From the NCBI RefSeq assembly GCF_016862795.1, contig NZ_BONQ01000081.1, forward strand, positions 1 to 64,000: a stretch of DNA of 64,000 bases. Reading direction: 5' to 3'. This document shows, piece after piece, positions 9,814-48,464 of the stretch; within the stretch, counting starts at the first letter, position 1; each line of letters opens with the position of its first letter. A program made the position numbers and the translations under genes. The notes below the pieces were generated by a model. It saw only the letters and a list, made by a program, of their open reading frames with translations. It made no database searches and was not told the origin of the DNA. The DNA comes from Dactylosporangium siamense (lineage in GTDB: Bacteria > Actinomycetota > Actinomycetes > Mycobacteriales > Micromonosporaceae).

Positions 9814-10504
9814 TTACACCAGACCGGTCTCGTACGCGGCGACGACCAGCTGGGCGCGGTCATGCGCGCCGAGCTTCATCATCGCGCGGTTGACGTGGGT
9901 CTTCACGGTGTGCGGACTGACGACCAGGTGCGCGGCGATCTCGTCGTTCGAGCGGCCGGTGGCGACGAGGGCGACGACCTCGCGCTCCCGCTCGGTCAGG
10001 CCGGCGAGGCGGTCACCGTCGAAGGTGTGCGTCCGGTCCGGGCGGGCCAGGAACCGGGCGATCAGCCCGCGTAACGCCGCCGGTGACAGCAGCGCGTCGC
10101 CGCGGTGGATCGTGCGGATGGCGGCCAGCAGCTCGGCGGGTTCGGTGCTCTTGCCGAGGAAGCCGCTGGCGCCCGCGCGCAGCGCCTGGAAGACGTAGTC
10201 GTCGATCTCGAACGTGGTCAGGATCAACACCCGCTGGTGAGCGGGCCGCGGATCGGTGGTGATCATGCGAGTGGCGGCGAGGCCATCGAGGCCAGGCATG
10301 CGGATGTCCATCAGCACCACGTCGGCCCGGGTGCTCCGCGACCGCCTCCCGCCCGTTGGACGCCTCCCCGACGACCGTGATGTCGGCCGCCGCGTCCACG
10401 AACACCCGGAACCCGCTGCGGATCAACGGCTGATCGTCGGCCAGCAGGACCCGGATCGGCCCGCCGTCCCCGGCCGATTCCTCATCGCCGTCGCGGGAGC
10501 TCAT
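9814..10504 (-). pseudogene. NarL/LuxR-type response regulator, frameshifted
   Basis: Two adjoining frames together make one response regulator. The N-terminal receiver half starts at ATG 10504 (IRVLLADDQPLIRSGFRVFV) and runs to GREAVAE; about 10330 the coherent sequence switches to another frame and continues as DVVLMDIRMPGLDG, which holds the phospho-acceptor Asp, then LTEREREVVALVATGRSNDE and the LuxR helix-turn-helix to 9814. Restoring the frame needs net +1 or -2 bases. Comparison with the usual spacing between the two halves suggests about eight bases are missing between two GCGGAG words. As written, no full-length regulator is made. A sequencing or assembly error is the alternative. 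ATGA overlap with the upstream kinase gene shows they were one operon. Confidence 0.8.
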
Positions 10505-11940
10505 CGCGCCGTCCTGGGAAGCACCGCGGTGACCCGGAACCCTCCGCCGGGGTTCGACCCGGCCCGGAGTGTGCCGCCCAGCGCCGCCACCCGCTCGCGC
10601 ATCCCGATCAGCCCGAGCCCGCCTTGCACCGGATCGTCGTCCCCGCCGGACATCGGCTCGTCGGCACCGCGTGGCTCGCGCACTCCGAGAAGCCCGAGCC
10701 CGCCGGACACCGGACCCCCGCCGCCGGACACCGAACCCCCGCCGCCGGACACCGAACCGCCGGTGGCGGACACCGCATCGGCGTCCGGTCGCGCCGACCC
10801 ACGCACCGAGTCCTGCGCCGACTTTCGTGCCGACCCACGCGCCGACTCCCGCGCTGAGTCACGCGCTGAGTCACGCGCCGAGCCGCGCACTGAGTCACGC
10901 GCCGAGCCGCGCACTGAGTCACGCGCCGAGCCGCGCACTGAGTCACGCGCCGAGCCGCGCGACGGGGCGGCGGAGTTGTCGACGACGATGTGTAACGCGT
11001 CGTCGCGGAAGCGCAGCGTCACACGGACGGGGACCGGGCCCGCGTGCTTCCGCACGTTCGTCAGCGCCTCCTGCACGACCCGATACGCCGTGAGGTCGAC
11101 CGGCACGGTCACCGTGCGGTCGTCGCCCGACACCGACGCCTCCACCATCAGCCCCGAACGGCGGAACGTGGCGAGCAGGTCGGGCAGGCCGGCCAGCCCG
11201 GTCACCGGCTGGGTCGGCGTGAGCTGCTCGCCCGGGCGGCGGAGCAGGCCGATCGTGTCGCGCAGCTCGCCGAGGGCGGTCTGGCTCGCGTGCCGGACGT
11301 GGCCCAGCGCCTCGCGGGCACCGACCGGTGACGCGTCGAGCAGGTGCGCGGCCACGCCCGCCTGCACGTGGATCAGCGCCAGCTGATGACCGACCACGTC
11401 GTGCAGGTCGCGGGCGATGCGCAGCCGCTCGTCGGTGACCCGGCGGGCGGCCTCGGCGTCGCGGTCGTGCTCGGCCTGCCGGGCCCGCGCCTCGACCTCG
11501 GCGAGATACTCGCGGCGGCTGCGGGCGCCGTCGCCGGCCGCGACCGCGAGACCGCCCAGCGCGGCCAGGGCCAGATTCTCCGCGCCGAGCCACGACGACG
11601 GCTTCACGAGCATGTGCAGCCCGGCGAACGCCAGGACCGCCAGCACGCCGATCGTCAGCGCGCGGCGCCGGCTGCCGGACTCGGCGAGGGTGTAGAGCGC
11701 GATCAGCGGGGCGGCGAGGATGAGCACACCACCGTTGCCGTGGTGCACGACCAGGTAGACCTCGGCGGCGACGGAGCTGACCAGGAACACGGTGAACGGC
11801 GTGCGCCGCCGGGCGACGAGCGCGCCGCAGGCGACGGCGGCGGGCACGAGACCGGCCGCCGGCACACCGCGGGTCGTCACCAGCGCCACGACGCACACGA
11901 CCGCCGCGATGGCGAGGTCGGTGACGAATGGACGGCGCAT
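10501..11940 (-). CDS. Membrane sensor histidine kinase (NarL-partner type)
   Basis: A 479-residue histidine kinase of the HisKA_3 class. About five membrane helices occupy residues 8-140, followed by a short coiled linker and the dimerisation/phospho-acceptor segment LRIARDLHDVVGHQLALIHV (His about residue 181). The ATPase domain has the N box (EALTNVRKHAG) and a terminal G box (GGLGLIGMRERVAALGG), but about 100 residues separate them instead of the usual 25 or so: an S-A-R-D-S-V-R-G octapeptide expansion, then a Gly/Ser stretch, then a second, imperfect G box (GGLGLLGVREPRG). Such an insert falls in the ATP-lid region and may impair catalysis. Start chosen at ATG 11940, where the membrane segment begins. 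Its response-regulator partner is frameshifted, so the pair may be decaying. An ABC transporter is divergent from it and may be the former target. Confidence 0.85.
   Translation of the reverse strand: MRRPFVTDLAIAAVVCVVALVTTRGVPAAGLVPAAVACGALVARRRTPFTVFLVSSVAAEVYLVVHHGNGGVLILAAPLIALYTLAESGSRRRALTIGVLAVLAFAGLHMLVKPSSWLGAENLALAALGGLAVAAGDGARSRREYLAEVEARARQAEHDRDAEAARRVTDERLRIARDLHDVVGHQLALIHVQAGVAAHLLDASPVGAREALGHVRHASQTALGELRDTIGLLRRPGEQLTPTQPVTGLAGLPDLLATFRRSGLMVEASVSGDDRTVTVPVDLTAYRVVQEALTNVRKHAGPVPVRVTLRFRDDALHIVVDNSAAPSRGSARDSVRGSARDSVRGSARDSVRGSARDSARDSARESARGSARKSAQDSVRGSARPDADAVSATGGSVSGGGGSVSGGGGPVSGGLGLLGVREPRGADEPMSGGDDDPVQGGLGLIGMRERVAALGGTLRAGSNPGGGFRVTAVLPRTAR
10866..10961. repeat. 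24-bp tandem repeat inside the histidine kinase gene
   Basis: Four head-to-tail copies of a 24-bp unit (CTGAGTCACGCGCCGAGCCG plus four bases) start at 10866, 10890, 10914 and 10938, with degenerate partial copies running back to about 10800. The unit is a multiple of three and encodes S-A-R-D-S-V-R-G on the minus strand, so it expands the kinase without breaking its frame. Near-identity of the copies indicates recent slippage. Confidence 0.92.
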
Positions 11941-12049
11941 GCAGACACCGTAGACCGGGCGTACGACAGAAAACGTCGCCCAGCCGCGGTATCCGACATC
12001 CCGCAGCGGGGCGACGACGCCGGCCCGGAAACCCGGCAGCCTGTGGCGC

Positions 12050-12760
12050 ATGGCAGACGGCGTCGACGTGCGAATACACGCACTCAGCAAACACTTCAAG
12101 CAGGTCAGAGCGGTTGACAACCTCACCTTCGACGTCCCGCCCGGGACGGTCACCGGGTTCCTGGGACCGAACGGATCGGGCAAGACCACGACGCTGCGGA
12201 TGCTGCTCGGTCTGGTCAGGCCGACCGCCGGCAGCGCGCTCATCGGCGGCCGTGCCTATGCCGACCTCCCCGACCCCCGCCGGACCGTCGGCGCGGTCCT
12301 CGAGACCGCCGGTTTCCATCCTGGCCGCCGCGGCCGCGACCACCTGCGGATCGTCGCGCAGGCCGCCAGGATCCCGCAGCGGCGGGTCGACGAGGTCCTC
12401 GGCGAGGTCGGCCTCGACGACGCCGCGGACCGCCGGGTGGGCGGCTACTCCCTCGGCATGCGCCAACGGCTGGCCCTGGCGGGCGCCCTACTGGGGGAAG
12501 GCGGAGGGCGGCCCCGGCTCCTGGTGCTCGACGAACCCAGCAACGGCCTCGACCCGGGCGGCATGGCCTGGCTCCGGGACCTGATCACCGCCAAGGCCGC
12601 CGCCGGCCACACCGTCGTGATCTCCAGCCACGTGCTGGCCGAGGTGTCCCGGATCGCCGACCACATCGTCATCGTGCGCGACGGCCGGCTGCGGTACGCC
12701 GGTCCGGCCGCCGCGATGACCAAGACCCTTGAGGAGACGTTCGCCGATGCTACGAGCTGA
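12050..12760 (+). CDS. ABC transporter ATP-binding protein
   Basis: A 236-residue ATPase subunit of an ABC-2-type transporter. Walker [10 protein letters not shown] is at about residues 39-47, the signature segment is [16 protein letters not shown], and Walker [14 protein letters not shown] and the switch histidine in [10 protein letters not shown] follow, so it should be catalytically complete. Its stop lies 14 bp inside the permease gene at 12747, showing translational coupling to the membrane subunit. The arrangement resembles exporters for peptides or antibiotics (bcrA-like). It is divergent from the damaged kinase operon. The exported substrate is unknown. Confidence 0.92.
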
Positions 12761-13424
12761 GCTCATGAAACTCACCACCACGAGGGCGCCGTGGCTGCTG
12801 CTCGCCGCCGCCCAGCTCGTGGTGATCGTCGGGGTGAGCGGCGCCGACGACGCGGTGAAGGGCGTCGCGCACGTCGGCCTCGCCAGCATGTTCCCGCTGA
12901 TGCTCGGCATCATGGCGGTCGCCGGGGAGTACCGCCACCAGACCGTCACCGACACGTACCTGACCACGCCGCACCGCGGGCGGGTCATCGCCGCCAAGCT
13001 CGTCGTGCACACCGGCGCCGGGCTGGGCTTCGGCCTGGTCGGCGCGGCGGTCGCGCTGGGCACCACCGCGGCGCTGCAACGCTTCGAGCTGACCGCCGAG
13101 CTGACCCGGACCGTCGTCGGCGCCGTCTGCTGGAACACCGTGTTCGCCGCCATCGGCGTCGGGGTCGGCGCGATGATCCGCAACCAGGTCGCCGCGATCG
13201 CCGCCGCGCTCGCCTGGCTGGCGCTCGTCGAGGGTGTCGTCGCGGAGCTCGTCGGCCGGGACGCCGCGCGGTGGTTGCCGTTCACCGCCGGCACCGCACT
13301 CGGCAACCTGCCCCTGGACGTCGATCTGTCCCAAGCGGCTGCGGCGTCGGTACTGACGAGCTACGCAATCGCACTCACCGTCCTTGCGGTCGCCACGACC
13401 GTACGCCGGGACGCGTTGCCCTGA
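12747..13424 (+). CDS. ABC-2 type transporter permease
   Basis: A 225-residue membrane protein with about six hydrophobic helices, the partner of the preceding ATPase. [20 protein letters not shown] at the N-terminus is the usual beginning of this permease family (LxxExxKLxTxR). ATG at 12747 overlaps the ATPase gene by 14 bp; an in-frame start 18 bp upstream is less likely. The last 50 bp of this gene, together with the 24 bp that follow, recur imperfectly at 20983-21056, beyond the RHS locus (see the repeat entries), which marks this 3' end as a recombination boundary. Confidence 0.9.
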
Positions 13425-13450
13425 GGGTCCAGAAGGGCCGGTTGGCGAAG
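13377..13450. repeat. Left copy of duplicated permease/Hsp70 junction
   Basis: The first 50 bp (end of the permease gene including its TGA) match 20983-21032 at 44 positions; the next 24 bp match 21033-21056 at 18. On the plus strand this copy is intact permease coding sequence ([15 protein letters not shown]-stop). On the minus strand the part after the stop reads F-A-N-R-P-F, resembling the F-A-Y-R-P-S end of the Hsp70-like protein encoded at 21035. The copy therefore looks like a remnant of a permease-versus-Hsp70 convergent junction. Confidence 0.75.
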
Positions 13451-13600
13451 ATTACGCTCAGTAGTTGTTTTCGGGGGTGTATCGAGGCTGGTTCCGGTCG
13501 TCGCGCTCACGGGCGGGCCGCAGGGCGTTTCGGCACATTGCGCTTCGTGATGCGGCCCCGCGCCTGGTTGCGCAACCCGCGGCAAATTCCGTAGCTTGCT

Positions 13601-13632
13601 CATCGCCGCAGGCCAGAGGGTCTGCGGCGATG
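13601..13632 (+). promoter_or_regulatory. Leader hairpin upstream of the RHS gene
   Basis: CATCGCCGCAG (13601-13611) and CTGCGGCGATG (13622-13632) form a perfect 11-bp stem with a 10-base loop. It ends about ten bases before the GGGGGAA ribosome-binding site (13642) of the giant RHS gene. If transcribed, it would sit in the 5' leader, where it could stabilise the message or control translation; no known riboswitch class is recognised. Confidence 0.6.
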
Positions 13633-13655
13633 TGCTGCTACGGGGGAATGTCTGC

Positions 13656-16600
13656 ATGTCCGCAACTGTGTTCGGGTTGGTCGGCGGGCACCGCCGTTCG
13701 CCGGTCGGCTGGCGGGTGTTCTGCGCGGCCGTGGCGGGCGCGGTCGCGTCGTCACTCTTCGTGGTGGCCCCCGGGTTCGCTGCCCCGGCCGCGCCCGCCA
13801 CGGCCGCCGCCGCGCCGGCGACGTCCGTCCCGGTGCGGTCGGCGAGCGCGCGAGCGGCGTCGAAGGCGGGTTCCCAGACGAGTCCCGCGTGGACCGCCGG
13901 CGCGCAGGCGTGGCCGGCCGGTGGTGACGCCGTCATAGCGGTCAACACCGGCGCTGCCGGGGCGGCGACGGCACGCTCGGCCCTGGCATCGTCCGCCAGC
14001 GGCAAGGCCGGCGGGCTCGGACTGGCCGTGCGGGGCAGCGGCGGGAATCCGCTCAACGAGCGTGCGCTGGTGCACGGCGCCGTCACGGCGGCGGGCCCGG
14101 GGTCGGTGCGGGTGTCAGTGGCGGACCGCGCGACGACCGACGCCGCCGGTGTCCGGGGCGTGCTGTTCACCGTGGTGCGGGCCGACGGTGCCGCCGGCAC
14201 CGGCCAGGTCGCGCTGGACCTCGACTATGCCGGGTTCGCCAACGCCTACGGCGGCGACTACGGCGGCAGGTTGCGGCTCGTCCGGCTGCCCAGCTGCGTG
14301 CTGACGACGCCGTCGCTGCCGCAGTGCCGGATCCAGACACCCGTGTCCGGGGTGGTCAACACGACCGCGGACCAGGTCCTGTCCGCGGAGGCGGTCGACG
14401 TCGGCGACGGCACCCGGGCCACGACGTTCGCCGGGAAGCCCGCCAGCGCGGCGACGACCCCGGCGGCGGGCGCGTGGGGGCCCAGCGAGACCGACGTCCG
14501 CAAGCACTCCGGCGGTGCCGCGGACGCCCGTTCGACGAACGGCACGCCGCAGACGACGGCCGCGTCGATGAGCGACCAGCCGGTCTACGCGATGGCCGCC
14601 AGCGCGTCCTCCGTGTCCGGCAGCTACGCACACACGACGCTGTCGCAGACCGCCACCTGGGGTGCCGGCACGCAGGGCGGCGAGTTCGCCTACACCGTGC
14701 CGTTGACGATGCCGGCGGTGTCCGCCGGGCCGACGCCGAAGCTGACGCTGGCCTATTCGTCGAACTCGGTGGACGGCAAGACGACGTCGACGAACAACCA
14801 GGCGTCGTGGGTCGGTGAGGGCTGGGACCTGCAGACGGGCTTCATCGAGCGCTCCTACCGGGCCTGCACCGACGACGGCGGCACGACCGGGGACCTGTGC
14901 TGGTTCACCGACAAGGTGATCACGATGGTGCTCAACGGCAGGTCGACCCGGCTCATCAAGGACGACAACACCGGCGTGTGGAAGCCCGAGGCCGACGACG
15001 GCTCGAAGGTCGAGCTGCTCATCAACGACGTCGCCAACGGTGACTACTTCAAGGAGTACTGGAAGGTCACCACGCAGGACGGCACGCAGTACTACTTCGG
15101 CAAGCACAAGCGGTACACGACGGATCCCGACGCGACGAACTCGGTGCAGAAGGTGCTCGTGTACGGCAACAACGCCGGCGAGCCGTGCAACGTGGCGGGG
15201 CAGCCGTGGAACTCCGGGTGTGACCGCGCGTACCGGTGGAACCTCGACTACGTCGTGGACCCCGCCGGCAACTCGATGACGTACTTCTACGAGCGCTACC
15301 AGGGCAAGTACGGCAACTTCAACGGCGCCAACAACTGGGTGTACGACCTGACGTCGCGGCTCAAGCGCATCGACTACGGCGCCCGCGCCGGCAGCGAGGG
15401 CACCTCGGCGCCGGTCGCCCGGGTCAACCTCGTGGAGAACCCCCGCTGCGACCCGACCTCCAGCGGCTGCAGCTCGTACCCCGACGTGCCGTGGGACCAG
15501 TACTGCCCGACGACGCAGACCGCGCCGTGCTCGCAGTACACGCCGACGTACTGGACGCCGTGGCAGCTGGCGATGATCTACTCCGAGGTGTACGACGCGG
15601 CGACGAGCACCTACCGGCAGGTCGACTCGTACTACCTGACCAAGACGTTCCCGAGCCCGCTGGACGGCACTGCGGCGGCGCTGTGGTTCAGCGCCCTGCA
15701 GCACACCGGCAAGGCCGGCGGCACGGGCAACGACATCACGTTGCCGACCATGACGTTCACCGGTGAGGCGAAGGCGAACCGGGTCAACAACGGCACCAGC
15801 AACCACTACCGGATGACGCTGGTCTCGACCGGCACCGGCGAGGAGGTCGAGGTCACCTACGCGCCGACGGAGTGCACCGCGGCGACCGTCGGCACCTACT
15901 CGGTGGACCAGAACACCCACCTGTGCTTCCCGGGCGACGGCTCCTGGTTCCACAAGTACGTCGTCGCGAAGGTCACCGACCGGGACCTCATCAACGCGAC
16001 GGAGGAGGTGACCTCGTACACGTACTCCACGGCCGGCAGCACCGTTCCCGCGCTGTGGCGGCTGGACAGCAACGAGGCCGCGCCGTCGCACTCGTACACC
16101 GACTTCGCCGGCTACCCGACCGTCACCACGAAACGCGGTCCGACCGGCGGCCAGCAGAGCATCACCGAGAAGCTGTACTTCCGCAGCCTCGCCGGCGACA
16201 AGCTCACCAACGGCACCGAGCGGCAGGTGTGGGTCGTCGACTCGACCGGCACCCAGACCTACGACTACGGGCAGATCCGCGGGTCGGTCCGGGAGGAGCG
16301 CACCTACGACGGCTCGACGATGACCGGCAAGACCCTGCACTCGCTGCGGTTCGCCGGGCCGAACGGCTACGACAACCCGACCGCGACCCGCACCGGCACC
16401 TGGTCCGGCGCGGTGCCGGCGAAGGCCTACCAGACCGTCGAGTACGAGACGCTGACCCGGACGCTGCTCCCCGGCGGGACGTGGCGGTGGACGCGACAGG
16501 CCCGCGACTTCGACATCTACGGCCTGCCGGTGAAGGTCACCGACTACGCCGACGCGGGCACCGCCGCCACCGCGGACAACGCCGGCAAGACCGCCGACGA

Positions 16601-19600
16601 CACCTGCACCATGATCAGTTACGCGGCCCGCACCACGGCCAGGTGGATGGTGAGCTACCCGTCGCAGAGCATCACCACGGACTGCGCGGCCAGCCCGTCC
16701 GGCGCCAACTACCTGTCCGGCAGCCAGACGCTGTACGACGGTGGCGCCGTGGGCGTGGCACCGACGAAGGGCCTGGTCACCAGCAGCAACACCCTCGCTA
16801 CGGTGTCCGGCACGACGCTGACCTGGGCGCAGGCGGGCCGCACCGACTACGACGCGCTCGGCCGGGTCACCGGCGACTACGACGCGCTGGGCCACGGCAC
16901 CACCACGGCCTACACGCCGGCGGGCGGCGGACCGGTCACCTCCATGACGGTGACCAACGCGCTCGGCCACGCCAGCACCGCGACGATCGACCCGGCCCGC
17001 GGCGACGTGACCCGGATCGTGGACGCCAACAGCAAGGCCACCGTCATGCAGTACGACTCGCTGGGCCGGCGCACGAAGGTGTGGCTGGCGGGCCGGGCGA
17101 CCAACCTCACGCCCGACCTGGAGTACGGCTACACGCTGCGCAACACCGCCGCCAACGCGGTGAGCACGAAGAAGCTCGGCCCGAACGGCAACGTGGTCAC
17201 CAGCTACGAGCTGTACGACGGCCGGCTGCGACTGCGGCAGACGCAGGCACCGGCGCCCCAGGCCGTCGGCGGCCGCGCGATCACCGACACCACGTACGAC
17301 GCGCGTGGCCTGACCGCGAAGACGTCCAGCTTCTGGAACAACGCCGCACCGGCCGACACGATCGCCGCGTTCAACGACACCGACGTGCTCAACCAGCACC
17401 GGTACTCCTACGACAACCTCGAACGGCAGACCACCGACGCGCTGTACTCCGCGAACGCGCTGAAATGGCAGACGAGCACCCTCTACCAGGGCGACCGCAC
17501 GTCGGTGACGCCCCCGGCCGGTGGCGTCACCACGCAGAAGGTGTTCGACGCCCGGGGCAACACCACGGAGCTGCGCCAGTACACCAGCACCAACCTGAGC
17601 GGCACGTACACGTCGACCGGATACACGTACGACCGGCTGAACCGGCTGACGAAGGTCACCGACGCCGCCGGCAACGAGTGGGGCACCACCTACGACGTGC
17701 GCGGACGGGTCACCCAGAGCACCGATCCCGACAAGGGCGCGACCGGCTTCACATATGACGCGGCGGGCCGGATGCAGACGTCCACCGACGCCCGGCCGGT
17801 CACGCTCACCTACGAGTACGACAACCTCGACCGCAAGACGGCCGTGTACGACGGGCCGAACACCAGCGGGTTCAAGCGCGCCAAGTGGGTGTACGACACC
17901 ATCGCCAAGGGGCAGCTGACCTCGTCGACCCGATACGTCGGCACGGACAGCTTCACCACGACGGTCACCGGCTACGACGACGGCTACCGCGCGCTCGGCT
18001 CCACCACGACGATCGCGTCCAGCACCGCCAACCCGGGGCTGCCGGACGGCACGTACACGACCGGCACCACGTACAACGTCGACGGGTCGGTGGCGACCGT
18101 CACCTACCCGGCAGCCGGCGCGCTGACCGCGGAGACGGTGACCACGACGTACGACACCACCGGGCACGTCCTGACCGTGGCGAGCCCAGCCACGACCTAC
18201 GTGTCCAGCTCCAGCTACTACTGGTTCGGCGCCATCTACCAGCAGGTGCTGGGCAGCGGCACGAAGCAGGTCCGGCGCACGACCAGCATGGACGAGGCGA
18301 CCAACCGGCTGGTGTCCAACGCCACCGAGACCCAGAACCAGACCACGAGCACCAACTGGGACCTGAAGCTCAAGGAGCAGTACGGCTACGACCCGGCCGG
18401 CAACGTCAAGAGCATCAACGAGGTCAACGCCGCCGGCGGCACCGTCGCCAACCAGTGCTTCACCTACAACGTGCAGCGGCAGTTCGCCGAGGCGTGGACG
18501 ACGGCGAGCAGCACCTGCCAGGCGAGCCCTTCCACCGCGGTGATGGGCGGCACCGACCCGTACTGGACGACCTTCACGTACGACACCACGAGCGCGAACC
18601 GGACGAAGGAGGTCCGGCACACGACCGCCGGCACCCAGACCACCCGGACCTACGCCTACCCGTCGACCGGGAAGCGGCACACGCTGACCAGCGTCACCGC
18701 CACGGGCGACACCACCGGCACCGACAGCTACCTGTACGACAACGCGGGCAACACCAGGAGCCGCACCATCAGCGGCAAGCCGGCCCAGACGTTGACCTGG
18801 GACAACGAGGGGCACCTCGGCACCGTCGCCGACAGCGCCGGCACCACCACCTACATCTACGACGCCGACGGCAACCGGCTGATCGCCCGGGAACCCGCGG
18901 GAGCCACCGTCTACCTGCCCGGGTTCGAGGTGCGCAAGGCCGGCGGCACGGTGACCTGCACCCGCTACTACGGCACCGTCGCGAGCCGCACCGCGACCGG
19001 CGTGACCTGGCTCGGCACCGATCACCACAACACGGGGCAGGTCGCCGTCGACGCCGGTACCCTCGCCACCACCCGCCGAAAGACGGACCCGTTCGGCAAC
19101 CCGCGCGGCGCCGACCCCACGTGGCCCAACTCCCGCGGCTTCGTCGACGGCACCCGCGACGGCACCGGCCTCACCCACCTCGGGGCGCGCGAGTACGAAC
19201 CCGGCACCGGCCGGTTCATCTCCGACGACACCGTCGCCGACTACACCGACCCGCAGCAGATCAACGGCTACTCGTACGCGAACGGCAACCCGGTCACCTC
19301 GTCGGACCCGAGCGGTCTGTGGAACGACCACGACCCCAAGGACACGCCCGCCTACGAGCCGCCGTGCACCATCTACAACACGGAGAACTGCGGCCCGCCG
19401 AACTACGGCGGGGGCACCCCGCCCAAGGGCGGGCCGTCCAAGCCGTGCACGAAGGCGAGCTGCGACCCGTGCAAGAACCAGGGCCGCAACCCGACCTGCG
19501 CAACGCCGGGGCAGCTCGAGGTGAAGGCCGAGCAGGACGCGAAGGTCCTGCGGATGAAGCTCGGCTGCCTGGCCCTCTTCGGCGTCGCCTGCGCGTTCCT

Positions 19601-20081
19601 CATCAACCCGAAGATGAAGAGCTCCTACGAGCAGGCGTGGTGCTACGAGGTGGGGATGGTGAAGTGCAAACGCGGCATCGGGGCGATGCAGGAAGCGACC
19701 GCCTACGCCGACTCGTTGCAGAACCAGGGCGGCTGGTCGGGCGCGGATGCGAACGCCGTGAAGCACGCGTACTGGATGGCGCTCATGGCCAGCGACGGGT
19801 TCACCGCCAGCGAGGCCGAGAACCTCGGCGTAGCGCATGAGCTGGGCGCGATCCAGTCCCGGACCCAGGAGGGCGAGAAGGGCGGCAACCCGAACATCGA
19901 CTACGGCGAAGGCGAGTCGGACCTCGACCTGCACAACAACAAGGTCGGCTTCCAGGTCGGTGCGTCCGGTAAGACCGGTGACGAGTTGAAGGCCGCCGTG
20001 ACTGCTACGGTCTACGAGAGAGGCGGTGCCAGCTGCATGCAGGCCGGTATCTGCACGTACTCGTGGGATGCGAAGCATTAG
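13656..20081 (+). CDS. Secreted RHS/YD-repeat protein with polymorphic toxin-like C-terminus
   Basis: A 2141-residue exported giant protein. Residues 1-44 form a signal peptide (hydrophobic run VFCAAVAGAVASSLFVVAPG, then AFAAPA). A long beta-rich N-terminal region includes YTVPLTMPAVSAGPTPKLTL and SWVGEGWDLQ, as in SpvB-like parts of actinobacterial RHS proteins. Many YD repeats follow (for example YDALGRVTGDYDALGH), building the RHS shell, then the RHS core (residues about 1790-1889: HLGAREYEPGTGRFISDD, YSYANGNPV, DPSGLW). After DPSGLW the sequence changes completely into a 252-residue unique tail with a Cys/Pro-rich linker, a hydrophobic helix near 1967-1983 and a compact domain with NAVKHAYWMALM, VAHELG and DLHNNKVG. 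That domain resembles an uncharacterised HAYW/AHE/DNN family seen at toxin C-termini. ATG 13656 has a strong GGGGGAA site. Probably an intercellular competition protein; activity unknown. Confidence 0.9.
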   Translation: MSATVFGLVGGHRRSPVGWRVFCAAVAGAVASSLFVVAPGFAAPAAPATAAAAPATSVPVRSASARAASKAGSQTSPAWTAGAQAWPAGGDAVIAVNTGAAGAATARSALASSASGKAGGLGLAVRGSGGNPLNERALVHGAVTAAGPGSVRVSVADRATTDAAGVRGVLFTVVRADGAAGTGQVALDLDYAGFANAYGGDYGGRLRLVRLPSCVLTTPSLPQCRIQTPVSGVVNTTADQVLSAEAVDVGDGTRATTFAGKPASAATTPAAGAWGPSETDVRKHSGGAADARSTNGTPQTTAASMSDQPVYAMAASASSVSGSYAHTTLSQTATWGAGTQGGEFAYTVPLTMPAVSAGPTPKLTLAYSSNSVDGKTTSTNNQASWVGEGWDLQTGFIERSYRACTDDGGTTGDLCWFTDKVITMVLNGRSTRLIKDDNTGVWKPEADDGSKVELLINDVANGDYFKEYWKVTTQDGTQYYFGKHKRYTTDPDATNSVQKVLVYGNNAGEPCNVAGQPWNSGCDRAYRWNLDYVVDPAGNSMTYFYERYQGKYGNFNGANNWVYDLTSRLKRIDYGARAGSEGTSAPVARVNLVENPRCDPTSSGCSSYPDVPWDQYCPTTQTAPCSQYTPTYWTPWQLAMIYSEVYDAATSTYRQVDSYYLTKTFPSPLDGTAAALWFSALQHTGKAGGTGNDITLPTMTFTGEAKANRVNNGTSNHYRMTLVSTGTGEEVEVTYAPTECTAATVGTYSVDQNTHLCFPGDGSWFHKYVVAKVTDRDLINATEEVTSYTYSTAGSTVPALWRLDSNEAAPSHSYTDFAGYPTVTTKRGPTGGQQSITEKLYFRSLAGDKLTNGTERQVWVVDSTGTQTYDYGQIRGSVREERTYDGSTMTGKTLHSLRFAGPNGYDNPTATRTGTWSGAVPAKAYQTVEYETLTRTLLPGGTWRWTRQARDFDIYGLPVKVTDYADAGTAATADNAGKTADDTCTMISYAARTTARWMVSYPSQSITTDCAASPSGANYLSGSQTLYDGGAVGVAPTKGLVTSSNTLATVSGTTLTWAQAGRTDYDALGRVTGDYDALGHGTTTAYTPAGGGPVTSMTVTNALGHASTATIDPARGDVTRIVDANSKATVMQYDSLGRRTKVWLAGRATNLTPDLEYGYTLRNTAANAVSTKKLGPNGNVVTSYELYDGRLRLRQTQAPAPQAVGGRAITDTTYDARGLTAKTSSFWNNAAPADTIAAFNDTDVLNQHRYSYDNLERQTTDALYSANALKWQTSTLYQGDRTSVTPPAGGVTTQKVFDARGNTTELRQYTSTNLSGTYTSTGYTYDRLNRLTKVTDAAGNEWGTTYDVRGRVTQSTDPDKGATGFTYDAAGRMQTSTDARPVTLTYEYDNLDRKTAVYDGPNTSGFKRAKWVYDTIAKGQLTSSTRYVGTDSFTTTVTGYDDGYRALGSTTTIASSTANPGLPDGTYTTGTTYNVDGSVATVTYPAAGALTAETVTTTYDTTGHVLTVASPATTYVSSSSYYWFGAIYQQVLGSGTKQVRRTTSMDEATNRLVSNATETQNQTTSTNWDLKLKEQYGYDPAGNVKSINEVNAAGGTVANQCFTYNVQRQFAEAWTTASSTCQASPSTAVMGGTDPYWTTFTYDTTSANRTKEVRHTTAGTQTTRTYAYPSTGKRHTLTSVTATGDTTGTDSYLYDNAGNTRSRTISGKPAQTLTWDNEGHLGTVADSAGTTTYIYDADGNRLIAREPAGATVYLPGFEVRKAGGTVTCTRYYGTVASRTATGVTWLGTDHHNTGQVAVDAGTLATTRRKTDPFGNPRGADPTWPNSRGFVDGTRDGTGLTHLGAREYEPGTGRFISDDTVADYTDPQQINGYSYANGNPVTSSDPSGLWNDHDPKDTPAYEPPCTIYNTENCGPPNYGGGTPPKGGPSKPCTKASCDPCKNQGRNPTCATPGQLEVKAEQDAKVLRMKLGCLALFGVACAFLINPKMKSSYEQAWCYEVGMVKCKRGIGAMQEATAYADSLQNQGGWSGADANAVKHAYWMALMASDGFTASEAENLGVAHELGAIQSRTQEGEKGGNPNIDYGEGESDLDLHNNKVGFQVGASGKTGDELKAAVTATVYERGGASCMQAGICTYSWDAKH

Positions 20082-20959
20082 TGAGGCTCTTGCGCAGCGG
20101 CGCGCCGCGGCTGCTCGGTGTGCTTGCCCTCGCGCTGTCCGCGGTGACAGCGTGCGGGCAGCCACCGCTGCAGCCGGGCGCCGCCGGGTTCGTCTGGATG
20201 GGCGACGACCACATCTACTCCGTGGCGAAGAACCAGGCGAACGAGGCGGGCCACCTGCGGCGCACCGATCGCGGCCTGCACACGCAGAACGTGCGGCTGC
20301 CCGACGGGTGCTGGATCGACCTCAACGCCGGCGCGATCGGCCGGGTCGACGACCACCGGTTCGCCGTCGTGCTGGCCTGCGGGTCGCCAGCGCTGTACGT
20401 GTACGACACGGCGAGCCGGCAGTTCGAGCGGCGGCCGGCACCGTCGATCGGTGACCCGCTGATCGCCCTCGAGCCGGGCATGACGACGGGATTCCAGGCC
20501 GACGCCTGCTCGGTGCGGCGGCTGCGGTGGGACGGCCACGAGTACACCGGTGCGCCGGTGGACCTGGGGCCGACCTGCGTGCACGGCAACGGCGTGACCT
20601 CCCTCGCGCTGGTCACCCTCGACGGGCGGCAGCAGCTGCTGTTCACGGCGGTCACCGGCCGCGACGAGGACCGCTGGACGATCCTCGCCCTCGACGTGCG
20701 GACCGGCCAGAGCCGCGTGCTCCGCGACAACGTCGCCGGCACGAGCCGCGCGGTCTGGGCGGTCGCCTCAACCGACGGCGGCACCCTGTTCGTGACCAGC
20801 TCGGAGGGCATCGCACGGGTCGACGTCAGGTCCGGCCGCACGGAGCAGGTCCGCGCCGGCGCCTTCTACCGGCTCGGCCTGTCCCCGGACGGCAGGACGC
20901 TGTTCGCCCAGCGCTTCGACGGCGACACGGCGGCATACGAGTTCATTGCCGTCAGCTGA
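20081..20959 (+). CDS. Lipoprotein, beta-propeller-like; candidate immunity protein
   Basis: A 292-residue exported lipoprotein: the N-terminus (VRLLRSGAPRLLGVLALALS then AVTAC) has a basic start, hydrophobic core and a lipobox ending in the Cys that would be acylated. The mature part is rich in short beta-strand repeats (IYSVAKNQ, VWAVASTDGGTLFVTSSEG, RLGLSPDGRTLFAQRF), as in WD40/PD40-like propellers. GTG at 20081 shares one base with the stop of the RHS gene (TAGTG), so the two are translationally coupled; the open frame 18 bp further upstream lacks such a signal. Position directly after a polymorphic toxin-like tail is where immunity proteins are normally found, and a membrane-anchored extracellular lipoprotein could neutralise a toxin arriving from neighbours. 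This role is inference. Confidence 0.8.
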   Translation: MRLLRSGAPRLLGVLALALSAVTACGQPPLQPGAAGFVWMGDDHIYSVAKNQANEAGHLRRTDRGLHTQNVRLPDGCWIDLNAGAIGRVDDHRFAVVLACGSPALYVYDTASRQFERRPAPSIGDPLIALEPGMTTGFQADACSVRRLRWDGHEYTGAPVDLGPTCVHGNGVTSLALVTLDGRQQLLFTAVTGRDEDRWTILALDVRTGQSRVLRDNVAGTSRAVWAVASTDGGTLFVTSSEGIARVDVRSGRTEQVRAGAFYRLGLSPDGRTLFAQRFDGDTAAYEFIAVS

Positions 20960-20982
20960 CCGGATGGCCCGGAGAGCACGCA

Positions 20983-21056
20983 ACCGTCCTCGCGGTCGCC
21001 ACGACCCTCCGCCGGCACGCGCTGCCCCGAGGATTCACGAGGGGCGGTAGGCGAAG
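20983..21056. repeat. Right copy of duplicated permease/Hsp70 junction
   Basis: This 74-bp block matches 13377-13450 at 62 positions. On the plus strand it reads [16 protein letters not shown], the very end of an ABC permease like the one at 12747, but without its stop codon and without any other permease sequence upstream. On the minus strand its right part is the functional end of the Hsp70-like gene (stop at 21035-21037). The 5' boundary is abrupt at 20983. Confidence 0.75.
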
Positions 21057-23458
21057 TCGGTGAACGACGCGGTGGCGCCGACGTTGCGCCACGTCGTCAG
21101 CAGGCTGATGAACGCCGTCGAGGCCCGCCCGGCCGGCGACGACACGGTCCGGCTGTCACCGGCCCGGTTGTTCACGGTCACCGTGACGGAGGAGGCGGTG
21201 ACGACCACGGTGACGGCGTAGAACCCCGAACCGGGCGTCACCTGGTCCGTCCAGTGGTCGTTCTCGAGCACCGTGTTGTCGTTGACCTTCACCAGCTCGA
21301 TCCAGCCGTCGCCGCAGACGTTGACGTATTCGTACGCCGTGCCGTCTCCGGTGGTGTGCACGGCCACCCCGCCGCAGCCACTGCGGTTGCTGGTCGTCTC
21401 CGGTCCAGCCATCCGGCCGACGGCGAACGACACCGTGTACGCCTCGGGCAGCCGCTGCCCCGACAGCGACATCCGCAGCTCGGCGTACGAGCGCAGGAAC
21501 CCGTCGTCCCAGCCGACCTGCTTCTTCAAGGCCGTGGCGTCCGCCGCGCAGGTGACGTCGCCACGCACGGCCCGCCACTGCACGCGCGAGTCGGTCTCCT
21601 GGCAGCCCGGAGTGCCGCGTTCGACGGAGACCACCGGCCGGGCCGTCGAGCCGCCCGTCGGCGAGACGACGACCACCGGATTGGTGGCGGACGAGCTCGC
21701 GACGGTCGGGCCGGGCGTGGTCGGGGCCGCGGTGGTGGGGTCGGCCGATGCGGGCACGGAGATCGCCGGCCCGGCGCCGCTGCCCGTCTCCGCCTCGCCC
21801 CGAGGACCGCGCTGCTGCGACCAGAACAGCAGACCGGTGGCGATCAGGACCAGCAGGACGAGCGCTCCGGCGAGCAGCGGTGCGGAACGTCGCCGGGCGG
21901 GGACGGCGGGCACCGCCGGAGGAGATGCGGTCGGCCGAGACGGCCCGCCCGGGCGAGTCGGCCCGGTCAGGCGAGACGGCCCGGCCGGACGAGACGTGGT
22001 CGCCGTCGTCGGCCGGGTCGTCGCGGGCGGCGCCGGCGTCACAGCCGGCACGCCGGTCAGCGGCGCCTTGACCGGCGTCGCCGCCACGATTGGCACCCCC
22101 GTCGGTGGCGAGGAGACGGGCGGTGTGACGACCGGCGGTGCCGAGGCCGGCCGTGCCGAGACAGGCGGTGTGGAGGCCGGCCGTGCGGAGACGGGTGGTG
22201 CCGGCGCTGGCCGTGCGGAGACGGGTGGTGCCGGCGCTGGCCGTGCGGAGAAGGGTGGTGCCGAGGTCGGTGGTGTGGAGACGGGCGGTGCGGGGGCGGG
22301 CGGTGTGGAGACCGGTGGTGCGGAGGTCGGCGATGCCATCGCCGGTGCCGAGGCCGGCGGACGGGAAGGGGCCGCGGGGAGCGCGGATGTCGGCAGCTCC
22401 GTCGTGGCGTGCAGGCTGCCGTACGCCACCACGAGCTCCGGCTGCTCGATCACCGTCGGCGCCACCCCCAACGCCCGGTGCAGCAGTTGCGCCGCCAGCG
22501 GGATCCGGCTGGAACCGCCGACGAGCAGCACCCCGGCGAGTTCGTCCGCCGGCACGCCCGCGGCCTGCACGGTGGCCAGGGTCAGCGCGACGGTCCGGTC
22601 CAGATGGCCCCGCGCGGCCTGCTCGAACTCCTCGCGGGTGACGTGCGCGTCGACCTCCACCAGGGGAATGTGGACGTCGGCCGAAGCGTGCCGGCTCAGC
22701 TGTTCCTTCGTCGCCCTGGCGTCCAGCCACAGGAACCGCCGGGCGCGCTGGTCGGCGGTCGTCACCGGGTGGTCGAGCCGGTGCCACGCCTCGGGCGCCG
22801 AACCGGCGGTCGCGTCGCGCAACCGGGCGACGACCACGGCGTCGAGGTCGTCGCCGCCGACGTCGGCCAGTCCGTCAGCGGCGAGGACCTCCACCCCGTC
22901 GGCCGCCTGCCGCACGACGCTGACGTCGAACGTGCCGGCGCCGAAGTCGTACACCACCAGGCACTTCCCGGGAGGGAACGTCGCGCCGAGGACGGACGCG
23001 AAGTAGCCGGCGGCGGCGACCGGTTCGCGGATCAGCTTCACGTCGCCCAGCCCGGCCCCGCGCGCCGCCGAAGCGAGGACCGCGAGCCTCGTCCGGCTCC
23101 ACGCGGCCGGGCAGGTCAGCACCGTTTCCGCGGGGTCGTCACCGCCCACCCGGCGGGCCTCCTCCAGCACCCGCCGCAGGACGGCGGTGAGCAGCTCGAC
23201 GACCGGCACGGCACGGTCGCCGAGCCAGACGGTGTCGTCGTCGATGCGCTGCTTGGGGCTGGGTTCGAACGCGGCAGGATGGACGCCGGCCGAGCGCGCC
23301 GCGTCCGCTCCCGTCAACAGCTGCCCGCCGGCGCCCGCGAACACGGCCGACGGCAGCAGCGGGGACGCGTCGAACAGCAGCGCGCTGACCGGCCCGTCGC
23401 CGCGGCGCAGGCAGCCGACGGTGGTGGACGTGCCCAGGTCGATGCCGAGTCGGAGCAT
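21035..23458 (-). CDS. Hsp70-like ATPase with membrane span and extracytoplasmic domain
   Basis: An 807-residue protein with an N-terminal actin/Hsp70-type ATPase domain (residues 1-370): phosphate-1 loop GIDLGTSTTVG, phosphate-2 loop VYDFGAGTFDVSVV and adenosine motif LLVGGSSRIPLAAQLL. There is no Hsp70 substrate-binding domain. Instead a long Pro/Ala/Thr-rich linker (about 375-520) leads to one membrane helix (APLLAGALVLLVLIATGLLF, about 524-546) and an outside domain of 260 residues, Cys-containing and beta-rich (YTVSFAVGRMAGPET, GTAYEYVNVCGDGWIEL, VTVVVTASSVTVTVNN), like concanavalin/laminin-G folds. This topology suggests a receptor with a cytoplasmic actin-fold ATPase. ATG 23458 follows the kinase gene stop by one base, so it belongs to the two-component operon. 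Confidence 0.87.
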   Translation of the reverse strand: MLRLGIDLGTSTTVGCLRRGDGPVSALLFDASPLLPSAVFAGAGGQLLTGADAARSAGVHPAAFEPSPKQRIDDDTVWLGDRAVPVVELLTAVLRRVLEEARRVGGDDPAETVLTCPAAWSRTRLAVLASAARGAGLGDVKLIREPVAAAGYFASVLGATFPPGKCLVVYDFGAGTFDVSVVRQAADGVEVLAADGLADVGGDDLDAVVVARLRDATAGSAPEAWHRLDHPVTTADQRARRFLWLDARATKEQLSRHASADVHIPLVEVDAHVTREEFEQAARGHLDRTVALTLATVQAAGVPADELAGVLLVGGSSRIPLAAQLLHRALGVAPTVIEQPELVVAYGSLHATTELPTSALPAAPSRPPASAPAMASPTSAPPVSTPPAPAPPVSTPPTSAPPFSARPAPAPPVSARPAPAPPVSARPASTPPVSARPASAPPVVTPPVSSPPTGVPIVAATPVKAPLTGVPAVTPAPPATTRPTTATTSRPAGPSRLTGPTRPGGPSRPTASPPAVPAVPARRRSAPLLAGALVLLVLIATGLLFWSQQRGPRGEAETGSGAGPAISVPASADPTTAAPTTPGPTVASSSATNPVVVVSPTGGSTARPVVSVERGTPGCQETDSRVQWRAVRGDVTCAADATALKKQVGWDDGFLRSYAELRMSLSGQRLPEAYTVSFAVGRMAGPETTSNRSGCGGVAVHTTGDGTAYEYVNVCGDGWIELVKVNDNTVLENDHWTDQVTPGSGFYAVTVVVTASSVTVTVNNRAGDSRTVSSPAGRASTAFISLLTTWRNVGATASFTDFAYRPS
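22201..22260. repeat. 30-bp tandem repeat in the Hsp70-like linker
   Basis: Two head-to-tail 30-bp units (22201-22230 and 22231-22260) differ at one base and are flanked by more diverged copies from about 22130 to 22330. They encode the Pro/Ala/Ser-rich linker of the Hsp70-like protein on the minus strand, so the linker length probably varies between strains. Confidence 0.85.
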
Positions 23459-27668: not shown

Positions 27669-30104
27669 TCACAACAGGCCGGCCATGTCCCACACGCGGG
27701 TCGAGCTGTCCAGGCCCCCGGTGATGAGGCGCGTGCCGTCCGCGGTCACGGTCAGGCAGTAGACGGAGGTGAACGTCGATGTCGCCAGCAGCTGGTAGGT
27801 TGTCGCGTCCCACAACCGCATCGCGTTGTCCGGATCCGTGGTGGTCACGATCCCCGCGCCGTTCGGGCCGAAGAGCACCTCCTTGACCTTCTTCTGGCCC
27901 GAGGCGACGGCCTTCAGTTCGGTGCCGGCGACGACGTCCCAGACGCGGAACATGCCGTCGGAGCCTCCGGAGACCAGCTTCGTCGCGTCAGGGCTGAACG
28001 AGACGCCCCGTGCGCCGTCGGTGTGGGCCTGCACGGTCCTGTTGAGGGCGCCGTTGGCGACGTTCCAGATCCAGACCTTGCCACTGTCCGCGGCGGCGGC
28101 GAGCAGCGTGCCGGACTTGTCGAAGGTGATGCCGCGCATGCCGTCACCGTTGGTGCCGAGGGTCAGCCGCTCCTTACGGGTGGCGACGTCCCACAGCACC
28201 ACCCCGCCGTTTTCGCGCCCGACGGCGAGCAGGGTGCTGTCGGGGCTGAACTTGACCGTCGCGCCCGACCCGGCGTACCCGCCGCCGATCCTGCCGATCT
28301 GAGCCTTCGACCCGACCTCCTTGACGGTGACGCCGGCCTCGGCGGCGAACGCCACGACCTGGCCGTTCGGGCTGAGCGCGACGGTGTCGATCGTCTGCAG
28401 GGCGTTCCTGGTGTCGTGCAGGACCACGCCGTCCGTCTTGCCCTGCTGGCGCAGCCGGACGGTGCCGTCGAGGCTGCTGGTGGCGTACAGCGATCCGTCG
28501 GGCGTGACGCTGACCCCGGTCACGTAGCTGGCGTTGGCGTCGGTGATCTCGAGCTGCCGGAACTCCGGGATCCGCGGGGTCGGTGAGGCGGATCGGGTGG
28601 GGGAGGAGCCGCCGTCGTTCGGAGTGTTCCCGCCGTTGCCGGCGCCGGGGAGATAGATGGCGGCCGCGACGACCGCCGCGAGCACCACGACGGCGATCGC
28701 CACCCGGCGGCCCGGACGGTTCGGGGGCGGCCCCGGTAGCGCAGGCACAACGGCCGGTGACCGCACCGCCGTGCCGGCCGGTGCCGGCACCGCAGCGACA
28801 CCTGGCTCCTCCGCGGAAGCGGCATCCGGCACGGCAGCGGGAGCGGCATCCGGTTCCGCAGCCGGATCGGCATCCGGCACCGCAACGGGAGCGGCGGCTG
28901 GCACGGCAGCGGGAGCCGGCTCCGGCACAGGTTCGGGCGGCGTCGCCGACGCCGGGGAGCCGAGCGTCACGTCCGACGGCACGAGCTGCACTGAAGGCTC
29001 CGCGACCGGGAGCCGCGGCGCCGGGTAGACGACGGGCAACGCCATCGATGCCGGCGCCGGAGCGACGCGCAGGCTGCCCTCGGCGACGACCAGCTCGGGC
29101 CGTTCCCGGACGACCGGCGCGACACCCAGGGCCTGGTGCAGCAGCGTCGCCGCGAGGGGGATGCGGGACGACCCGCCAACCAGGAACACGGCCCGCTCGG
29201 GTGCTTTCCCGGCGGCCCGGACGACGGCGCGGGTCGCGGTGACGGTGCGGTCCAGGATCGGCCGGGCGAGCTGCTCCAGCTGGTCCCGTCCGAGCGGCAC
29301 GTCGGTGGCGAACAACGGCACGTGGATGAGCGTCGAGGCGGTCCGCGACAGCATCTCCTTGCCGGTCCGCACGTCGTCCCACAGCATCCGGGCCAGCCGC
29401 CGGTCCTCGCCGGTGACCGGCTGCGCCAGCCTGGCCCACCGCTCCGGGTCCCGCGACGCGAAGACGGTCCCGAGGTACGCGACGACGGCCGCGTCCACGT
29501 CGAGCCCGCCGGTGTCCTCCAGCCCCCGTTCGGCGAGCACCTCGAACCCGTCGGCGGTGCGGCGCACTACGGATGCGTCGAAGGTGCCGGCGCCGAAGTC
29601 GTACACCACCACCTGCGAACCGACGGCAAGACCCGCGGCGAACGCGTGGGCGGCGGCGACGGGCTCCGCGACCAGCGTGACGGTCCCGAGCCCGGCGGCG
29701 GCCGCGGCCTCAGCCAGCAGCCCGCGGCGGGCCGTTCCCCACCCGGCCGGGCAGGTGACCGTCACGTCCTCGACCGCCTCCCCGGCGACCCTGGAAGCCT
29801 CCACGGCAACCCGTCGGAACACGGCCGCGACCAGGACCACCGAGGAGACCTCGGCCCCGCCGAGCAGGACGGTGCCCTCGTCGATGACCCGTTTCGGGTT
29901 CGGCTCGAACGCCTCCGGCAGCGCCCGCGCCGCGTGCAGCGCGTCCCGCCCGACCAGCAGCTCCCCGTCCGCGGTCCGGCACACCGCCGACGGGAGCAGC
30001 TCCGAGCCGTCGAACAGCAGCGGCCTGGCCTGCTCCCCGCCGGTGGCGAGCACCGCGACGGTGTTGAAGGTGCCGAAGTCGATGCCGAGCCGGGTGCCTG
30101 CCAC
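27669..30104 (-). CDS. Hsp70-like ATPase with membrane span and WD40 domain
   Basis: An 811-residue protein built like its neighbour at 21035: an N-terminal Hsp70/actin-type ATPase (GIDFGTFNTVAV, VYDFGAGTFDASVV, FLVGGSSRIPLAATLL; residues 1-360), a Pro/Ala/Glu-rich linker of about 100 residues, one membrane helix (VAIAVVVLAAVVAAAIYLPG, about 463-485), and then WD40-type repeats to the end (SVTPDGSLYATSSLDGTVRL, VSFSPDATKLVSGGSDGMFR and others), which should fold as a beta propeller outside the membrane. The substrate-binding domain of true Hsp70 is absent. The frame begins at a TTG at 30143; GTG at 30104 is preferred because the ATPase sequence starts there (VAGTRLGIDFG). Probably paralogous to the protein at 21035 in its ATPase part, with a different sensor fused on. 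Confidence 0.87.
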   Translation of the reverse strand: MAGTRLGIDFGTFNTVAVLATGGEQARPLLFDGSELLPSAVCRTADGELLVGRDALHAARALPEAFEPNPKRVIDEGTVLLGGAEVSSVVLVAAVFRRVAVEASRVAGEAVEDVTVTCPAGWGTARRGLLAEAAAAAGLGTVTLVAEPVAAAHAFAAGLAVGSQVVVYDFGAGTFDASVVRRTADGFEVLAERGLEDTGGLDVDAAVVAYLGTVFASRDPERWARLAQPVTGEDRRLARMLWDDVRTGKEMLSRTASTLIHVPLFATDVPLGRDQLEQLARPILDRTVTATRAVVRAAGKAPERAVFLVGGSSRIPLAATLLHQALGVAPVVRERPELVVAEGSLRVAPAPASMALPVVYPAPRLPVAEPSVQLVPSDVTLGSPASATPPEPVPEPAPAAVPAAAPVAVPDADPAAEPDAAPAAVPDAASAEEPGVAAVPAPAGTAVRSPAVVPALPGPPPNRPGRRVAIAVVVLAAVVAAAIYLPGAGNGGNTPNDGGSSPTRSASPTPRIPEFRQLEITDANASYVTGVSVTPDGSLYATSSLDGTVRLRQQGKTDGVVLHDTRNALQTIDTVALSPNGQVVAFAAEAGVTVKEVGSKAQIGRIGGGYAGSGATVKFSPDSTLLAVGRENGGVVLWDVATRKERLTLGTNGDGMRGITFDKSGTLLAAAADSGKVWIWNVANGALNRTVQAHTDGARGVSFSPDATKLVSGGSDGMFRVWDVVAGTELKAVASGQKKVKEVLFGPNGAGIVTTTDPDNAMRLWDATTYQLLATSTFTSVYCLTVTADGTRLITGGLDSSTRVWDMAGLL

Positions 30105-30146
30105 CCCGGAACTATATGGGGTCGGACGCACCCGGCTCGGCAACCA

Positions 30147-47785: not shown

Positions 47786-48464
47786 CCGCGGACAGCACCG
47801 TGCGCAGCCACGACTCCGACGTGTTGACGTGCAGCAGTGCGCTGGCCTGGGCGAGCAGCGGATCCCGGGAGCGCAGCGCCAGGTAGATCGCCTCGTGCTC
47901 GCTGAGCGTGACGTGCGCCGAGTTGCCCTCGATCAGCCCGCGCCACACCCTGGCCCGCAGGGTCTGCCCGGACAGGCCGTCGAGCAGGGAGGTCAGTGTC
48001 TCGTTGCCGGTGGCGGCGATGACGGTGCGGTGGAAGGCCGCGTCGTAGCCGATGAGCCGCTCCGCGTCGTCCTTGGCGGCCCGCATGTCCTCCAGGATCT
48101 GGCCGAGCTCGTCGAGCTCCGCGTCCGACATCCGTAGCGCGGCCGCGCCGGTGGCGGCCGGCTCCAGCATCCGGCGGACCTCCATCACCTCCATGAGCGT
48201 GTCGTCGCGCAGCAGCTCGACCGCGACGCCCAGCCCTTCCAGCAGCAGCCGCGGCGCGAGGCTGGTGACGTAGGTGCCGTCGCCGCGCCGCACGTCCAGC
48301 ACGCGGGCGGCCTCGAGGACCTTCACGGCTTCCCGGACGCCGCTGCGGGAGATCCCCATCTGCGTGGAGAGCTGGGCCTCGGTCGGCAGCCGCGAACCCG
48401 GTGGCAGTTCGCCGAGCTGGATCATCGTGCGCAGCCGGGTGATGGCGTCGTCGGTCAGTGCCAC
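47781..48464 (-). CDS. GntR/FadR-type regulator, paralogue A
   Basis: A 227-residue FCD-domain GntR regulator. The winged helix-turn-helix is RTMIQLGELPPGSRLPTEAQ, STQMGISRSGVREAVKVLEA, RVLDVRRGDGTYVTSLAPR (residues 12-70); the C-terminal helical domain has the ligand/metal-site elements DAAFHRTVIAATGN and LSEHEAIYLAL. It is nearly identical to the protein at 59085: the recognition helix and wing are the same residue for residue, so both should bind the same DNA word. Start is GTG 48464. It is divergent from the aldo/keto reductase operon, whose promoter carries ACATCAGATGT, and a degenerate copy (ACATCATATCT, 48491) lies on its own side, consistent with autoregulation. Confidence 0.92.
   Translation of the reverse strand: MALTDDAITRLRTMIQLGELPPGSRLPTEAQLSTQMGISRSGVREAVKVLEAARVLDVRRGDGTYVTSLAPRLLLEGLGVAVELLRDDTLMEVMEVRRMLEPAATGAAALRMSDAELDELGQILEDMRAAKDDAERLIGYDAAFHRTVIAATGNETLTSLLDGLSGQTLRARVWRGLIEGNSAHVTLSEHEAIYLALRSRDPLLAQASALLHVNTSESWLRTVLSAA

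Follow-up and report, generated by a model that had tools for sequence, protein, structure and literature searches.

Two copies of a convergent permease/Hsp70 gene junction bracket an RHS-lipoprotein gene pair in Dactylosporangium siamense

An RHS locus in the 12.7-Mb genome of Dactylosporangium siamense raises the question of how RHS and other polymorphic toxin loci spread to new chromosomal places without a transposase. The DNA analysed here, referred to as the window, comprises positions 1-64000 of contig NZ_BONQ01000081.1 (C81). From left to right, a module consisting of a response regulator, a histidine kinase, an ABC ATPase and a permease (approximately 9814-13424) is followed by an RHS gene, a lipoprotein gene and, on the opposite strand, an Hsp70-like gene. 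The ABC transporter ATPase of this left-hand module is encoded by an open reading frame at 12050-12760 of the forward strand (PF00005, E 6.8e-27), and the ABC-2 type permease gene occupies 12747-13424 of the same strand (PF12679, E 1e-7). Within the response regulator gene (9814-10504, reverse strand) the reading frame is broken near 10.32 kb, the first part and the rest being open in different frames, which reflects either decay or an assembly error. The tail of the kinase gene contains tandem repeats of 12-bp units (10778-10981). On the right, the Hsp70-like gene is encoded at 21035-23458 of the reverse strand, with a start picked by the authors; it matches PF00012 (E 1.5e-28), has tail-domain homologues, and encodes a repeat-rich middle, a C-terminal extension and a membrane anchor (the last recognised by eye). 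Its middle includes tandem repeats of 15-bp units (22059-22396). Approximately 4 kb past the first there is another Hsp70-like gene (27669-30143, reverse strand), whose tail looks WD40-like by eye, and two parts of these genes match each other at 74% and 85% DNA identity.

The RHS/YD-repeat protein gene (13656-20081, forward strand; 2141 aa) encodes RHS repeats and an RHS-associated core, with matches to TIGR03696 (E 2.6e-15; 56.7 bits versus a cut-off of 32.5), TIGR01643 (E 1.5e-7), PF05593 and PF22322 (E 1.1e-11). Its ATG start was picked by the authors, and the open frame permits a start at 13596. An imperfect palindrome at 13589-13643 (56 bp, 79% inverted self-match, E 1.5e-4) ends 13 bases 5' of the RHS start. 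The C-terminal tip of the RHS protein carries DUF6973 (19527-20078), with conserved His, Trp, Ala-His-Glu and Asn-Asn, and it varies between loci: related tips with 28-34% identity are present in L189, L192, L193 and L216, the L215 tip matches over its first 47 residues only, and no match at E<=1e-3 was obtained in the remaining RHS loci compared. The predicted structure of the tip is all-helical (mean pLDDT 71); its best match in the PDB has an E value of 2.4, and a serum amyloid A chain is matched at E 4.1 with a probability of 0.13. This model gives only a hint of a lipocone-like toxin. The main text of the lipocone toxin paper (PMC12419801) does not name DUF6973; the immunity proteins of such toxins are reported there as membrane proteins or lipoproteins.

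The lipoprotein gene (20081-20959, forward strand) is an open reading frame with a V-T-A-C lipobox identified by eye, and is a candidate partner or immunity gene. Its GTG start, picked by the authors, overlaps the RHS stop codon as TAGTG, and because of this overlap the two genes may be translated together. Judging from this gene arrangement, the RHS protein may be a toxin with a C-terminal tip and the lipoprotein may protect the producer. The lipoprotein has no NCBIfam match, WD40 being reached only at E 0.027, and its structural model is poor (pLDDT 50). Homologues were found at E<=1e-3 in 11 of 300 family genomes including its own; the matches in other genomes are partial and reach 1.7e-5 at best. 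Among the other complete RHS loci compared, only the lipoprotein of L216 matches it (24% over 266 aa, pairwise E 7e-5).

The first-pass annotation had drawn attention to a 74-bp block at 13377-13450 that recurs at 20983-21056 with 62 matches. These coordinates, the length and the match count are exact, and the alignment is ungapped. The block consists of the last 16 codons of the permease gene including its stop (13377-13424), a 4-base spacer, and the last 22 bases of an Hsp70 gene (13429-13450). As that annotation had described, each copy joins the working end of one gene to a decayed end of the other. The left copy, owned by the permease gene, has the working permease end with its stop (13424) and a decayed Hsp70 end (F-A-N-R-P-F-W) that lacks a stop, and the right copy, owned by the Hsp70-like gene, has a decayed permease end in which the Asp and the stop are lost, together with the working Hsp70 end (F-A-Y-R-P-S-stop). 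The two differ at 12 of 74 positions (16% divergence), and the longest identical run is 15 bases. In a search of the same genome, the right copy scored E 5e-16 and the next-best match E 0.0097, so no third copy of the junction was found in this genome. The permease side has 42 matches in 48 positions (p ~2e-16 by base composition) and the Hsp70 side 17 in 22 (p ~6e-6), and 17 matches were reached in 10 of approximately 200,000 random pairs of 22-mers. Since each side is above chance, the homology runs through both stop codons.

The strength of this repeat is not unique in the window, as a scan of all offsets yielded eight others with 60-69 matches in 74, some of which fall in the two Hsp70-like genes and in repeated domains. 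A direct repeat of 677 bp (84% identity) is also present at 47791-48464 and 59116-59789. An apparent leftward extension of the 74-bp match by BLAST is unsupported, because 800 of 2000 shuffles extend equally far. Nor does the repeat behave as a terminator or structured RNA: on either strand, neither copy folds more stably than shuffled sequence (z -0.73 to 0.63), and the two terminator-like sites within 13300-21200 are both away from the junction copies. The leader of the RHS gene (13451-13655) contains no second piece from the neighbouring genes, and no other trace of the Hsp70 gene or of the kinase-permease module was found 5' of the RHS gene in the window, leaving an Hsp70 remnant of at most 22 bp.

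Comparison with homologues indicates in which copy some of the differences arose. The permease ends in Arg-Arg-Asp in 20 of 21 aligned rows; the remaining row, from D. vinaceum, is cut, and its open reading frame reads Arg-Asp. The right copy has His at the conserved Asp position, and given the conservation of Arg-Arg-Asp across permease relatives this His is derived. Similarly, at their last conserved position the Hsp70-tail homologues have Tyr at four of five usable places and Phe at the fifth, in contrast to the Asn of the left copy. Both changes that could be polarised by relatives, the Asp of the permease half and the Tyr of the Hsp70 half, are therefore in the orphaned half of a copy, although with only two such changes the chance of both falling as predicted is 1 in 4. 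The two missing stop codons are also in the gene-less halves, as judged solely by which gene works. Together, these observations support the conclusion that both copies are one convergent permease/Hsp70 junction present twice around the RHS-lipoprotein pair. Of the history first suggested for the locus, the single ancestral permease/Hsp70 junction is supported, as both halves are above chance and the polarised changes fit. Entry by recombination between junction copies is one of several routes that could leave an identical scar, which include a single crossover of a circle, an earlier tandem duplication, a repair-type duplication and a lost integrase.

The content of the bracket bears on the last of these routes. 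The reported absence of a transposase or integrase was borne out when the RHS gene, the lipoprotein gene and ten other open frames were scanned; the ten frames, which lie in or overlap the bracket, gave nothing in Pfam at E<=0.1. The 25 longest inverted pairs include none that links one end of the bracket to the other, as terminal inverted repeats would. As an insertion sequence or transposon the unit has no transposase, and its repeat is a 74-bp diverged direct repeat, not a short target duplication. As an integrase-dependent island it has no integrase gene, and there is a direct repeat at the 3' end of a gene that is kept whole, which here spans two gene ends. As an insert with duplicated flanks it has direct repeats of host sequence on either side. 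It is conceivable that an element integrated site-specifically at the permease 3' end and brought its own copy of that end, with the integrase since lost or acting from elsewhere, and an intact gene end on one side with a displaced end on the other is what such an event would leave. However, no integrase was found in the bracket, the copies diverge by 16%, the repeat takes in the Hsp70 end, and the genome has no third copy, all of which make this route highly improbable.

If the junction predates the RHS gene, relatives might carry it singly. Of 354 family genomes, 31 (its own included) have the permease at E<=1e-20, with 49-63% identity among relatives at E<=1e-45 and 36% for the two weakest listed. 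Within the genus, D. vinaceum is the only other species with a permease of >50% identity. At 30 family permease loci (own included; 1.5 kb on each side), no Hsp70 or lipoprotein gene was found at E<=1e-4, and no RHS gene apart from that of the window; at 48 permease loci in named genomes, with flanks of up to 10 kb, all three were absent at E<=1e-15. The order response regulator-kinase-ATPase-permease was found at 27 of these 48 named loci, and since none of the 48 carries RHS at E<=1e-15, RHS is not part of the permease module. Five of 354 family genomes, own included, have the Hsp70 tail domain (E<=1e-5), for which there was no match in the scan of named genomes or in PLSDB, where plasmid copies were sought. 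In the six short loci outside the window (1.5-kb flanks; one near a contig end), no permease was beside the Hsp70 tail. Thus, among the loci searched, the meeting of permease and Hsp70 was seen in this genome only, and a single junction without RHS was not found among the 30 family and 48 named permease loci.

The D. vinaceum permease locus shares nothing with the window beyond the module, and comparison of the window contig with 53 sampled D. vinaceum stretches gave four rows (three places) at >=62% and no collinear block. The right-hand genes also match the genus weakly (51% over 45 aa for the Hsp70 tail, and at most 40% for the kinase to the right of the Hsp70-like gene). Such weak matches would be in keeping with a history in which RHS already stood beside the permease, and a diverged permease end arrived on the right together with the Hsp70 gene by recombination with DNA of another strain; a divergence of 16% is plausible for copies from two species. 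That history is nonetheless very improbable, since the Hsp70-end remnant of the left copy (17/22) would need a further step.

The RHS-lipoprotein pair is instead probably an accessory toxin-type unit that was inserted where the permease and Hsp70-like genes met tail to tail, through an entry that doubled the flank. The unit would have entered at the convergent permease/Hsp70 junction, and its entry would have left the flanking DNA as two direct copies. The route may have been one crossover in which the resident junction recombined with a circle, or with DNA that had circularised, that carried RHS together with a flank copy of its own. Decay of the redundant halves would then have left the 74-bp junction alone still readable on the redundant side. 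With 12 differences in 74 positions and no identical run longer than 15 bases, the scar is either old or the join of copies that had already diverged, and for the same reason re-excision through the scar by homologous recombination should be rare. We infer that the RHS-lipoprotein unit is the newcomer, the flanks of the window having almost no synteny with the sampled D. vinaceum stretches. This counts against the insertion, as do the shortness of the Hsp70 remnant, the small number of polarised changes and the failure to find an empty site among the loci searched. Overall, insertion is the best reading, and it draws on one genome and one good parallel, L194, which came from a survey of other RHS loci.

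In this survey, the RHS core was found 14 times in the D. siamense genome at E<=1e-10 and 29 times in six of seven genus genomes at E<=1e-20. Loci with an open frame of >=2000 codons were taken (5 of 14 in D. siamense and 14 of 16 in relatives, 19 in all); the RHS core places left out have shorter frames, several of which are cut by contig ends. L225 was excluded for having no upstream DNA, so that 18 loci were tested for a direct repeat between the 3.5 kb 5' and the 3.5 kb 3' of the RHS frame, with shortened flanks for L222 (2.6 kb after the frame) and L193 (3.2 kb before it). A bracketing repeat at E<=1e-10 was found at three of the 18: the window (81 bp as BLAST aligns it, 83% identity), L194 (68 bp, 91%) and L216 (138 bp, 91%). 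The other 15 have no bracket at E<=1e-3. A candidate left edge of the unit, in the form of a shared RHS leader, was rejected, as six loci compared had no convincing DNA similarity 5' of the RHS frame.

Two controls were examined for comparison. In 20 same-genus regions at round coordinates, one of 100 placements gave a repeat at E<=1e-10, two at 1e-6 and 12 at 1e-3, and in 38 permease loci of other actinomycetes two of 164 placements reached E<=1e-10 and 16 reached 1e-3. One control bracket, in paralogous regulator genes, has an E value of 4e-20 and is stronger than that of the window; the three strongest control repeats are 76-78% identical, compared with 83-91% for the RHS brackets. Since placements within one region overlap, counts are given both ways, and since the window raised the question, they are also given without it. 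By placement, the comparison is 3/18 versus 3/264 (p 0.004), or 2/17 versus 3/264 (p 0.031) without the window; by region, it is 3/18 versus 3/58 (p 0.14), or 2/17 versus 3/58 (p 0.32). An enrichment of bracketing repeats at RHS loci is thus suggestive only, and a common mode of entry is possible.

L194, on contig C33 of the D. siamense genome, offers the closest parallel, and its RHS frame looks split in two. Reading towards RHS, a front gene ends at approximately 290 and the gene preceding RHS at approximately 868 (by eye), and the stretch that follows before RHS (878-1225) is made up of four pieces whose sources are genes on either side. The first is 68 bp of a DUF998 gene (91%), of which the intact gene (DUF998, E 2.1e-35) lies 3' of RHS. 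The next three are 103 bp (87%), 36 bp (92%) and 62 bp (92%) of the front gene, in source order. The sources of the pieces are at 8-245, at 12955-13033 and in L262. Two or more such matches were found in 3 of 280 control stretches of 450 bp. Because genes from both sides are represented in this stretch, the L194 repeat is what remains of a longer duplication. The segment from the front gene to DUF998 was thus once present in two direct copies, with RHS inside the second. The order fits one crossover between a resident DUF998 gene and a circle with the front-gene end, RHS and DUF998. It equally fits a tandem duplication in which RHS replaced part of the second copy.

A prior tandem duplication is the main rival for the window. 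The permease-Hsp70 segment would first have been doubled head to tail, with RHS later arriving in the redundant middle and the inner Hsp70 gene and second permease gene being lost except for their ends. The observed order is reproduced exactly, and the L194 order (front gene, next gene, DUF998 piece, front-gene pieces, RHS, DUF998 gene) is the one expected with RHS in the second copy. Yet the window retains just 74 bp of two whole genes, and one step more is needed than with a single crossover. Whole genes would be expected in the bracket after such a duplication, but L194 shows that duplicated copies can shrink to pieces; duplication before entry is therefore kept as a rival, which we consider unlikely.

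A second parallel, L216, is from another Dactylosporangium species. Its 138-bp repeat is at 3486-3622 and 12345-12481; the copy in front of RHS derives from the interior of a lipoprotein-like gene, of which a truncated, frame-broken remainder lies downstream (by eye), and a search of 20 kb on each side gave no additional piece. This duplication may have another cause. A repair-type event could also be considered for the window, in which a break at the junction was repaired with duplication of 74 bp and capture of unrelated RHS DNA, the copies being identical at birth. The block is ungapped with sharp ends, and the window has no longer remnants, both in keeping with such repair. However, 74 bp is long for end joining and L194 has a longer duplication, and this origin is very unlikely.

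Returning to insertion by crossover, a broader and more tentative proposal is that RHS units of Dactylosporangium are mobile cassettes lacking their own recombinase, that crossover entry doubles the flanking genes, and that the copies shrink to scars of 70-140 bp. The window, L194 and L216 would then be three fossils of one mode, which we regard as possible but doubtful. Because such a scar preserves the two broken halves of the junction, a single genome suffices to read the event and to predict the form of an empty relative. Should scars of this kind recur at RHS loci, they would provide a simple sequence test of the mode of entry across actinomycetes.

Among the matches listed in literature searches (titles and the starts of abstracts), there was no published report of a host gene junction flanking an RHS locus on both sides. 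Toxin units are known to recombine into place and leave remnants behind; as far as the literature was searched, a scar that consists of a host gene junction is a new form. In Rhs C-terminal displacement, as described by Jackson et al. (2009; PMC2935791), RHS loci expand as DNA is inserted without a known integrase, leaving fragments and large direct repeats, and a circular intermediate is discussed for Rhs tips. The window is similar in both the probable insertion without a known integrase and the direct repeats, but the repeats described there are pieces of the RHS core within the locus, whereas that of the window is a host gene junction outside the RHS locus. Similarly to the entry proposed here, toxin-immunity modules of Vibrio T6SS clusters (Kirchberger et al. 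2017; PMC5361080) enter by homologous recombination, and perhaps also by homology-facilitated illegitimate recombination, and leave remnants; those modules enter at existing effector genes, in contrast to the unrelated convergent gene pair at which the window's unit lies. The CDI locus transposon of Burkholderia thailandensis (PMC6350997) also carries a polymorphic toxin locus on a movable unit, and it passes through a circle, the stage proposed here. It is approximately 210 kb and IS-bounded, whereas no transposase was found in the bracket of the window. Finally, circularised incoming DNA integrates by single crossing-over in E. coli (PMC3240628). That case was shown with plasmids in conjugation, whereas the route for the window is proposed from sequence, but a circle entering homologous DNA in this way would place that DNA on both sides of the insert, as in the window.
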